Origin: Succinimonas amylolytica DSM 2873
GTDB lineage: Bacteria > Pseudomonadota > Gammaproteobacteria > Enterobacterales > Succinivibrionaceae
Assembly: GCF_000378405.1 (NCBI RefSeq)
Contig: NZ_KB899636.1
Location: 450,713 to 492,616 of the forward strand
DNA length: 41,904 nucleotides
Direction of reading: 5' to 3'
Positions 30,047-33,193 of the stretch are shown piece by piece. The notes under the pieces are model-generated. The model was given only the letters and a program-made list of their open reading frames with translations, had not been told where the DNA came from and did no database searches. Position 1 is the first letter of the stretch, and each line of letters starts with the position of its first letter. The position numbers were made by a program, and so were the translations under genes.

Positions 30047-31291
30047 ATGGAATTTTTTTCGCGAAATGATAATGGTTCAATGATGGCAGAGGATGTTTCG
30101 GTTTCATTTTTGGCCCGGCAGTATGGAACCCCTCTGTATGTCTATTCAGAAAAGGCGCTCAGGGAGCATTTTTCCGAATTTGAGCAAAGTGCTGGCGATT
30201 TTCCTCATCTGATTTGCTATGCTGTTAAAGCAAACAGCAATCTCTCCATACTCCGTCTTATGGCTTCTCTTGGAGCCGGATTTGATATTGTGTCTGGCGG
30301 TGAACTGGCTCGGGTTATTAAAGCAGGGGGAGACCCTGCTAAAGTGGTTTATTCAGGGGTCGCCAAAACTGAATCTGAAATTTCCGCTGCTCTCAATGCC
30401 GGCATTCTTTCCTTTAACGTGGAATCTGAAGCTGAAATGGAGCGGATTAGTAGGGTGGCGGTGTCCGGGAATACAACGGCCAGAATTTCTGTCAGAGTAA
30501 ATCCAGATGTTGATGCCGGGACACATCCTTATATTTCCACCGGACTTAAAACCAATAAGTTCGGAGTTCCTGTGGAAAGGGCCTTCAATCTTTACAAAAG
30601 GGCTCTGGAACTTCCTGGAATTAAGATTGTCGGAATTGACTGTCATATTGGATCTCAGCTAACAAGTCTGGCACCTTTTGAAGATGCTTTAGATCGTATT
30701 GTTATGCTTATTACACGGCTCAAGAATGAAGGTATTGTTCTTGAGCATATTGATGTTGGTGGCGGACTTGGTGTTGTATATAACGATGAAGTTCCGCCAT
30801 CAAGAAAGTCTTATATGGATGTGATTATTAATAAGATAAGAGGGTTGAATATTAAACTGATTTGTGAACCTGGAAGATCCATGGTTGCCAATGCCGGTAT
30901 TTTAGTGTCTCGTTGTGAATATCTCAAGGAAGGGGAAACTGTTAATTTCTGTATTGTAGATACTGCAATGAATGACATGATCAGGCCTTCTCTTTATCAG
31001 GCCTGGATGAAAATTGAAGAAGCTGAGATGAATCAAAATGCTTCTGACGCAGTTTACAATGTTGTTGGTCCGGTGTGTGAGACTGGTGATTTCCTTGGAA
31101 AGGATCGGCATCTTCAGGTTGCCGCCGGAGATTATCTAGTGATGCAGGGAGCCGGTGCCTATGGTTTTTCAATGTCGTCCAACTATAATTCCAGGCCTCG
31201 GGCTTGTGAGGTAATGGTATCTGGCTCAGATCATCGTATTATCCGCAAAAGAGAGACTATTGAGGATCTTTGGCGAGGGGAAGAACTCTGA
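30047..31291 (+). CDS. lysA: Diaminopimelate decarboxylase
   Basis: LysA decarboxylates meso-diaminopimelate to lysine. The 414 residues are standard for the PLP fold-III family. The PLP lysine is in ICYAVKANSNLSILRLM, followed by AGFDIVSGGEL, DCHIGSQL, EPGRSMVANAG and the substrate-contact cysteine in GPVCETGDFLG. All catalytic residues appear intact, unlike those of the dapF-like gene that follows after 36 bases. GGAGG precedes the ATG. A working LysA needs meso-diaminopimelate, so an epimerase or dehydrogenase must exist elsewhere if the next gene is inactive. Confidence 0.96.
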   Translation: MEFFSRNDNGSMMAEDVSVSFLARQYGTPLYVYSEKALREHFSEFEQSAGDFPHLICYAVKANSNLSILRLMASLGAGFDIVSGGELARVIKAGGDPAKVVYSGVAKTESEISAALNAGILSFNVESEAEMERISRVAVSGNTTARISVRVNPDVDAGTHPYISTGLKTNKFGVPVERAFNLYKRALELPGIKIVGIDCHIGSQLTSLAPFEDALDRIVMLITRLKNEGIVLEHIDVGGGLGVVYNDEVPPSRKSYMDVIINKIRGLNIKLICEPGRSMVANAGILVSRCEYLKEGETVNFCIVDTAMNDMIRPSLYQAWMKIEEAEMNQNASDAVYNVVGPVCETGDFLGKDRHLQVAAGDYLVMQGAGAYGFSMSSNYNSRPRACEVMVSGSDHRIIRKRETIEDLWRGEEL

Positions 31292-31327: not shown

Positions 31328-32155
31328 ATGCTGGTCCATTTTTCAAAAATGGAGTGTCTGGGGCAGGATTTTATGGTCATGGATGCTGTGACCGAAAAGA
31401 TTTTTCCCGTGGCAGAAAAAATTCAAAAATGGGCTCAGCGTTGTACAGGAGTTGGATTTTCTGAATTCGCTCTGGTGGAACCTCCGTACGATCCGGATAC
31501 AGATTTTTACTTTCGGGTGTTTAGTGATACCGGCCAGGAGAGACAGCTCAGCGGGCATGCCTCTCTGGCTATGGGACGTTTTGTGAGGGATCGCAGACTT
31601 ATAAACCGTCCGAGCATCAGAGCAGGATATAACGGAGGGATTATTGCGCTAGATGTCGCTGATGAGAATGTCATTTCCGTGAATATGGGAAGACCTGTGT
31701 ATGATCCCATCAGATTGGGCTTCAAAACAAAAAAGCAGGAAAAAACTTATATATTGGAAAACGGAAAGTCAGGGATTCTCGTTTCGGTTGTCGGACTCCC
31801 AGAGGTTCATGTTGTGGTGGAGTCGCGGGAAATTACCAGTGCTGATATTACCGGTATTGGGAAGTCTTTGTCGGCTTCAGAACGTTTTACTGAAGTTCCT
31901 GCCATTGATTTTATGGAGATTGTAAATAATCATGAACTGGTTTTCAGAGGCTATCGTCATAATAAGGGCGAATGCGCATCTTCTGGAACCGGCGGTGTTG
32001 CAAGCGCCCTGGTTGGCGTTATGCACAAAACACTGGAATCTCCGGTAAAAATTAATTGTTCATCCGGTACAGAGGAGGTTGTGATAACTGCAGACGGTTC
32101 TGTTTCACTTTCTGCCCAGGTGAATTTTGTATTCAGCGGAATGGTTGAAATATAG
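31328..32155 (+). CDS. DapF homologue lacking both catalytic cysteines
   Basis: The 275 residues align end to end with diaminopimelate epimerase: FSKMECLGQDFMVMDAVT and GVGFSEFALVEPPYDPDTDF match E. coli closely. DapF uses Cys73 and Cys217 as acid-base pair. Here the corresponding residues are Ser75 (QLSGHA for QCGNGA) and Ser219 (CASSGTGG for TQACGSGA). Asn11 of GLGNDF is Gln, the NPH motif is LPE, and the Glu-Arg before the second cysteine is Arg-His. The frame is intact, with AGGAG seven bases from ATG 31328. The position between lysA and xerC is that of dapF. It may be a pseudoenzyme or a changed activity; GHAS recalls the related PhzF fold. Confidence 0.85.
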   Translation: MLVHFSKMECLGQDFMVMDAVTEKIFPVAEKIQKWAQRCTGVGFSEFALVEPPYDPDTDFYFRVFSDTGQERQLSGHASLAMGRFVRDRRLINRPSIRAGYNGGIIALDVADENVISVNMGRPVYDPIRLGFKTKKQEKTYILENGKSGILVSVVGLPEVHVVVESREITSADITGIGKSLSASERFTEVPAIDFMEIVNNHELVFRGYRHNKGECASSGTGGVASALVGVMHKTLESPVKINCSSGTEEVVITADGSVSLSAQVNFVFSGMVEI

Positions 32156-32224: not shown

Positions 32225-33193
32225 ATGACATTAGATGATAAAGACTATTATCTGAACAGTCCTTTTTCTAAAGAGGTTAGTGATTTTTTGCAATACCTTG
32301 CTTTGGAACGTAATTACAGTGATAAAACTGTTGAATCTTATAGACTTTCCCTTAAAAGGGCGGTACTCGAGATTCATCATTTCTACCCGGAAATAAACTC
32401 TTGGAATGATGTTACGGATACTTGCATTCGAAAAGTTATAAGAACACTGGACAATCTTAATGATCCTTCGAAAAGAATGTCAGGGAGATCGAAGGCTCAT
32501 TTTCTCAGTGTTTTAAAAAGCTTTCATAAATACCTCCATGAACAGGGGCGTATTTCCAGCGATTTTGTTTCCAATATTGAATCCCCCAAATATGGTGTCA
32601 GACTTCCGGAATATCTTACAGAAGATCAGTTTAACGAGCTTATAAAACTTCCGGATTCTCCGGAGCCTCGAGATTATCGTGATAATGCAATTATGGAATT
32701 GTTGTTTTCTAGCGGTCTCCGGGTAGCAGAAGTGGTATCCCTATTAATTGATGATGCTGATATGTCAAGAGGGATGCTCCATGTTGTAGGAAAGGGGAAT
32801 AAGGAAAGATTTGTTCCCTGTGGCGAGTATGCTTTGCGGGCTCTTAAGCGTTGGTTTCGTGTCAGGGATACCTATAGTCCGCAGTGCAGTAATATATTTG
32901 TTAACCGTTTTGGAGCACCGCTAACAACCCGGGCTGTACAGATTATGATAAAGAAGAAAGGATTGGATAATGCATTGCCAATTCAGCTTCATCCTCATAA
33001 GCTGAGGCATTCGTTTGCAACGGAAATGCTGAGAGGTGGTGCGGATATAAAGGTTATTCAGGAACTGATGGGACATGCCTCAAGCAATACCACAGGGGTT
33101 TATCTCCATTTGGGAATTGGAGATTTAAAAAAAGTATACGATCAGTGTCATCCTCTTGCATTACTTTGCAATAACGGAGAAGATGGTGAATAG
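32225..33193 (+). CDS. xerC: Tyrosine recombinase XerC
   Basis: XerC and XerD resolve chromosome dimers at dif under FtsK control. The 322 residues have the SAM-like N-terminal core-binding domain (about 15-110, LQYLALERNYSDKTVESY). The catalytic domain has Arg in SSGLRVAEV, Lys in VVGKGNKERF, H-x-x-R in HPHKLRHSF, His in LMGHASSNTT and the nucleophile Tyr in GVYLHLG. The ATG at 32225 follows GGGGA. Position after dapF and before yigB matches E. coli and supports XerC over XerD. The small gene or DUF484 gene usually between dapF and xerC is absent. Confidence 0.94.
   Translation: MTLDDKDYYLNSPFSKEVSDFLQYLALERNYSDKTVESYRLSLKRAVLEIHHFYPEINSWNDVTDTCIRKVIRTLDNLNDPSKRMSGRSKAHFLSVLKSFHKYLHEQGRISSDFVSNIESPKYGVRLPEYLTEDQFNELIKLPDSPEPRDYRDNAIMELLFSSGLRVAEVVSLLIDDADMSRGMLHVVGKGNKERFVPCGEYALRALKRWFRVRDTYSPQCSNIFVNRFGAPLTTRAVQIMIKKKGLDNALPIQLHPHKLRHSFATEMLRGGADIKVIQELMGHASSNTTGVYLHLGIGDLKKVYDQCHPLALLCNNGEDGE

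Follow-up and report, generated by a model that had tools for sequence, protein, structure and literature searches.

The dapF gene of the window (the whole stretch of 41,904 nt analyzed here, from Succinimonas amylolytica DSM 2873) lies in the classical position, and its product is a predicted dead epimerase under purifying selection. Sequence comparisons make it probable that this protein has been kept as a partner of RppH, docking through an EPPYDP hairpin in its N-domain. The surrounding gene order, hemY-cyaA-lysA-dapF-xerC-yigB-uvrD, is the classical one (compared with E. coli); xerC, yigB, cyaA, and uvrD are named here from best matches, each below the cut-off of its model, and LysA is far above its own (Table 1). 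The dapF ORF is complete, with 275 codons from the first start given in Table 1 or 276 from the alternative, and AAGGAG is immediately 5' of the start. The protein passes the NCBIfam DapF equivalog model TIGR00652 (135.6 bits; cut-off 114.65). The original prediction had described the frame, ribosome site, and overall fold pattern as intact, and this is borne out: an AlphaFold model (mean pLDDT 85.4, pTM 0.85) has the DapF fold, and its top match among the 50 listed is 6d13_A, the E. coli RppH-DapF complex (TM 0.91).

Table 1. Positions of the features discussed, numbered from the first letter of the window.
Feature	Position	Strand	Basis
lysA, diaminopimelate decarboxylase	30047..31291	+	TIGR01048, 524.8 bits (cut-off 297.9)
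dapF, classical position, predicted catalytically dead	31328..32155 (start alternatively 31325)	+	TIGR00652; Ser75/Ser219; dN/dS 0.07 relative to G028
A20-K24 (E. coli 18-22, VTQ region), second retained N-domain segment	31385..31399	+	TQKVF retention; VTQNV RppH effect
EPPYDP hairpin, E51-P56 (E. coli 49-54), proposed RppH-docking loop	31478..31495	+	PPYDP/PPFDP retention; RppH tracking
Ser75 codon AGC, replacing catalytic Cys73	31550..31552	+	Alignment and codon reading
Ser219 codon TCT, replacing catalytic Cys217	31982..31984	+	Alignment and codon reading
xerC, best match only, below model cut-off	32225..33193	+	TIGR02224, 274.2 bits (cut-off 335.15)

Residue positions below are in E. coli DapF numbering, taken from an alignment with PDB 6d13 that is colinear and gap-free across 254 residues. 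The alignment and the codons place serine at both catalytic cysteines, as had been predicted. Of the residues that we take to bind substrate, Asn11, Asn64, Asn157, Asn190, Glu208, and Arg209 are Q, S, E, A, R, and H. The predicted change of the GLGNDF Asn to Gln (Asn11) and of the Glu-Arg pair to Arg-His (Glu208-Arg209) are thus both present, but the reading of NPH as LPE was a register slip: NPH (157-159) aligns with EVH, and His159 is retained, as are Gly74, Gly218, and Gly220. Changes beyond those first described are Asn64 to Ser, Asn75 to His, Arg78 to Leu, and Asn190 to Ala. Both serines recur in two relatives, 91% (the genus-mate G028) and 74% identical to the window DapF, which rules out a sequencing slip in one genome.

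The window genome (G000; 3.96 Mb, 97% complete) encodes other means of making meso-diaminopimelate. It has an intact second DapF (DapF2; 302 bits), with both cysteines and the remaining active-site residues present, followed directly by DapL, and it also has Ddh (429 bits); no match to dapD or dapE was found in this 97% complete genome. A second cysteine-bearing dapF or a ddh were the alternatives that the original prediction had proposed looking for, and both are there. The asnB-dapF2-dapL cassette (L001; G000 C1:1338403-1342245) also occurs at L051-L056 and L063, and its similarity between genera far exceeds that of core genes (in G048 vs. G050, 91% identity for DapF2 and 57% for LysA), which suggests recent horizontal transfer. 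The asnB product may act on diaminopimelate.

Loss of the cysteines was followed through 56 genomes of the Succinivibrionaceae, the family of the window, 55 of which gave a DapF linked to lysA or xerC (G038, 69% complete, had no DapF match). Both cysteines are present in 36 of the 55, and dapD is matched in all 36 of these genomes, though only partially in G015 and G036; one or both are missing in the other 19, from genomes of which some are incomplete (59-99%), and none of these has a dapD match. Cysteine loss and dapD absence thus go together throughout the 55. Mapped on a five-marker tree, the pattern amounts to six changes, with six independent pairs all in the same direction (p 0.031). 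dapE, used as a control for plain gene loss, is mixed: there is no match in nine of the 19 genomes and one copy in the other ten. In group g11, two DapE-like genes are found in nine of ten genomes with intact cysteines, whereas genomes with a dead DapF have at most one, which may serve some other purpose. One possible intermediate is the G036 DapF (L069), from a genome 96% complete with only a partial dapD; it has both cysteines but also R78C and R209S. It was counted as cysteine-bearing in the dapD and loop tallies and left out of the 35-row canonical set used below.

The replacements at Cys73/Cys217 vary: Ser/Ser in g1, Gly/Cys in g9, Gly/Asn in a g11 clade, Val/Gln in G046, Gly/Gly in G035, and Asn/Asn in G050, with Cys73 retained and position 217 changed in the other four g12 genomes. 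In the g9 clade only Cys73 is lost and the remainder is nearly canonical, so that "impaired" is the better label for these copies. Ddh was found in 16 of the 19 genomes with cysteine loss (the remaining three are 59%, 74%, and 87% complete) and also in 14 of the 36 with intact cysteines, so Ddh alone is insufficient to force the loss. DapL is present in 15 of the 19 genomes if a fragment in G039 is included, with a linked DapF2 found in 14 of these, and above cut-off in none of the 36. G022 and G023 (95% and 97% complete) have Ddh, with no second DapF and no DapL above cut-off.

Despite these losses, the original view that this is not simple decay holds up. Alignments of close relatives, one of the checks first proposed, give a dN/dS for the lysA-linked DapF of 0.07 between the window and G028, and of 0.05-0.13 over ten close pairs from four groups. 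Neighboring genes have values of the same order, with LysA often lower. More distant g12 pairs reach 0.18-0.29, but at dS of 2-3, near saturation, and their neighbors are also higher. The N-domain (taken as residues 1-117 together with the C-terminal strand) is under stronger constraint than the C-domain in 10/10 pairs, which are partly non-independent. Seventeen of the 19 dead DapFs, of at least 257 aa, span both domains. The other two are truncated: the dapF of G041 (L045:4747-5178) has its C-domain deleted, leaving a protein of 143 aa, and that of G022 (L046:1567-2193) has lost most of it. Both retain the N-domain, the EPPYDP loop, and the C-terminal strand.

What is retained is concentrated in the N-domain. 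At 97 positions, at least 95% of the 35 canonical relatives share one residue; 15 of these positions survive in all nine full-length clades with cysteine loss, and all 15 are in the N-domain. Mean retention across the nine clades is 3.1 for the 16 active-site positions and 5.5 for the other 81. All 19 cysteine-loss DapFs, including both without all or most of the C-domain, have PPYDP (13) or PPFDP (6) at positions 50-54. A retention scan of 269 five-residue windows was run over eight branches from four of the six losses (g1; g12, with four branches; the g11 clade with G046; and G035), leaving out the g9 clade and the truncated G041 and G022 copies. Positions 50-54 (PPYDP) rank top of the 269, tied with 49-53, both raw and adjusted for canonical conservation. 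RLADR (32-36) and TQKVF (20-24) are likewise high, and R36 is retained in all nine full-length dead clades; the S. amylolytica sequence at the start of the TQKVF segment is VTEK, with Q21 changed to E. In the AlphaFold model the loop connects strands 46-51 and 60-65. DapF2 has a two-residue gap at the loop in 14/14 cases, a difference that would account for its failure to replace the lysA-linked copy.

A candidate for the retained role comes from E. coli, where the mRNA pyrophosphohydrolase RppH is both bound (Kd about 5 nM) and stimulated by DapF, and the epimerase-inactive C73A/C217A protein still does both (PMC4227774). R36 is required for DapF dimers, and a dimer-breaking mutant still binds RppH (PMC7144940). 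The window genome encodes RppH (G000 C1:237803-238327; 60% identity to that of E. coli), but so do 54 of the 56 family genomes, so that its presence alone is uninformative, and a reverse test was run instead. If a cysteine-free DapF binds RppH, then in genomes that still require the epimerase, loss of RppH should be accompanied by decay of the docking surface with the active site kept.

RppH had no match in nine of 295 genomes of the order and in 87 of 392 in the family of G095. Fifty of these 87, of which 19 were named outright and 31 deduced from missing handle numbers, entered the DapF search: a usable DapF was recovered from 39 and a split or broken one from three (G336, G471, G417), and eight had none. 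Thirty small RppH-bearing genomes gave 19 usable DapFs, fragments only in four, and no match in seven. The final comparison of 42 RppH-less and 39 RppH-bearing DapFs includes 18 of the 36 intact Succinivibrionaceae DapFs and excludes G115 and G175. At most two of five loop residues are present in 42/42 RppH-less DapFs, vs. at least three in 36/39 RppH-bearing ones (G333, G491, and G552 are the three without the loop), while both cysteines are present in 42/42 and 38/39, respectively. In congeneric pairs, the loop reads EPPYDP with RppH and EQTLNP without it in g207, EPSYKP and ESSHNP in g212, and EPPYDP and ESSDQL in g221, where the pair are not sisters on the DapF tree. A case from the window's own family is G002 (3.6 Mb; dapF locus 52% GC), which has a clean deletion of rppH; in four relatives the gene lies between ptsP and mutH. 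The loop of G002 is EKPKDD, vs. EPPYNP, EPPYSP, or EAPYSP in nine congeners.

Along the protein, with overall divergence as a covariate, the RppH effect is strongest at positions 51-55 and 50-54 (t 8.4 and 8.0, kinship ignored), and VTQNV is next best outside the loop. The retention and RppH scans, from different genomes, share the same top loop and are correlated (Spearman 0.48 over 54 non-overlapping windows). RppH-less symbionts are AT-richer (mean GC 0.24 vs. 0.36). Loss of prolines through AT bias was considered and rejected: the loop effect persists with GC added (t 7.5 and 7.1; stratified permutation p 0.0005, kinship again ignored), and prolines 121, 158, and 186 are retained to the same degree in both sets. 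In a phylogenetic test of loop against RppH there were five supported pairs, four one way and none opposite (p 0.125). Two genomes, G115 (89% complete) and G175 (60% complete), have no RppH match and retain the loop. Since 11 of the 30 small RppH-bearing genomes lack an intact DapF, RppH can evidently dispense with it in some genomes. Outside the family, the DapF of a small RppH-bearing genome, G552 (L210), has C73Y, C217S, and a half-decayed loop, EPPFYS; two of its congeners have no DapF match.

The closest known system, by both sequence and structure, is E. coli DapF (PDB 6d13, 6d1q, 6d1v, 6vck). Its loop, EPPYDP, is identical to that of the window DapF, and its cysteine-free mutant still binds and stimulates RppH (PMC4227774). 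The E. coli protein is however a working epimerase with both roles, whereas the window protein lacks the catalytic residues and about two thirds of the sequence identity has been lost. The same Cys to Ser changes are found, one each, in H. influenzae DapF C73S and C217S (PDB 2q9h and 2q9j, from their titles), but those are single, laboratory-made mutants, otherwise intact, while in the window both changes are natural and other active-site residues are gone as well. A broader parallel is E. coli enolase, a metabolic enzyme that, like DapF in the present proposal, takes part in mRNA decay, in its case within the RNA degradosome (PMC4227774); unlike the window DapF, predicted to be dead, enolase retains its activity.

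Other readings of the conserved but inactive protein were weighed. A decaying relic, in frame by chance or for operon continuity, would fit the lost active site, the two forms without all or most of the C-domain, and the faster evolution of that domain in every pair compared, but it is hardly credible and was rejected on the dN/dS of 0.05-0.13, of the same order as the neighbors though often above LysA; most copies also span both domains, and the same five residues are retained in 19/19. A pseudoenzyme role, in which the protein partners or regulates the intact DapF2, would account for the frequency of DapL and linked DapF2 alongside dead copies. It was rejected as highly improbable with G022 and G023, whose DapFs are dead or impaired and which have no second DapF to partner. 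A novel function, enzymatic or binding, confined to the window's genus, such as PhzF-like chemistry, would be in keeping with the Ser/Ser pair common to all three sequences of the group, with fold similarity to PhzF (TM 0.74), and with a short GHAS motif, likened to PhzF in the original prediction, that among the aligned DapF rows occurs in no group but the window's own. The protein is nevertheless colinear with gammaproteobacterial DapF, it scores below cut-off with PhzF models (16 bits vs. 76.2 for TIGR00654 of NCBIfam; 26.5 vs. 27 for PF02567 of Pfam), and PhzF structures rank under DapF structures among the 50 matches listed; a PhzF-like enzyme was rejected on these scores and this ranking. 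In addition, the strongest constraint is in the N-domain, not the old active site, and other lineages show the same loss with different replacements, which argues against one shared new chemistry. A genus-specific function is accordingly very unlikely. The original prediction had offered either another route to meso-diaminopimelate or a new function, with a hint at PhzF; the route exists and a function is indeed retained (dN/dS 0.07), but the PhzF hint finds no support.

A less distant alternative is that the same dead epimerase uses its loop and N-domain to bind another partner, which reduced genomes would have lost along with RppH. Gene loss in symbionts affects many genes at once, so that the loop may have had a different partner; RppH persists without an intact DapF in over a third of the small genomes, the 11 of 30 noted above; and R36, a dimer residue unneeded for RppH binding (PMC7144940), is kept in all nine full-length dead clades, so that dimerization or another role may also be selected. 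On the other side, G002 is not a reduced genome and yet combines a clean rppH deletion with loss of the loop, and RppH is the sole partner with evidence in those parts of the literature that were covered by the search. Another partner is therefore considered unlikely.

The explanation preferred here is that of a dead epimerase kept for RppH. The window protein would be the lineage's native DapF after loss of its epimerase job. Direct synthesis of meso-diaminopimelate by Ddh, often with an imported dapF2-dapL pair in addition, would have made the succinylase branch dispensable; dapD would then have been lost and the DapF active site have decayed. The gene would have been retained for a non-catalytic job of the N-domain, most likely docking to and stimulating RppH by way of the EPPYDP hairpin (E. 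coli 49-54) and adjoining segments, a job that the imported DapF2, without the loop, would be unable to take over. We infer this order of events, and likewise that in S. amylolytica the protein binds RppH physically and influences the 5' ends of mRNAs. In more general form, the argument is carried with somewhat less confidence, but still on balance favored: the dead DapFs may be dedicated mRNA-decay cofactors with some six origins, in forms down to 143 aa, and EPPYDP the RppH-docking signature of the DapFs studied.

In the part of the literature covered by the search, with few of the subscription journals, neither a naturally occurring dead DapF nor coevolution of DapF with RppH was found to be reported, and the relevance in nature of the effect of DapF on RppH has rested so far on E. 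coli experiments. If the reading is correct, the RppH role of DapF would be under lasting selection of its own, separable from the epimerase role and sometimes outliving it. Evolution appears to have separated the two functions both ways, with the active site lost and the loop kept in lineages that do not need the epimerase and, in genomes without RppH, the loop lost and the cysteines kept. A link between a metabolic enzyme and mRNA decay becomes directly testable, with the residues named. There is also a caution for annotation: in these bacteria a "dapF" in the classical place, even one above the equivalog cut-off, is not necessarily an epimerase.
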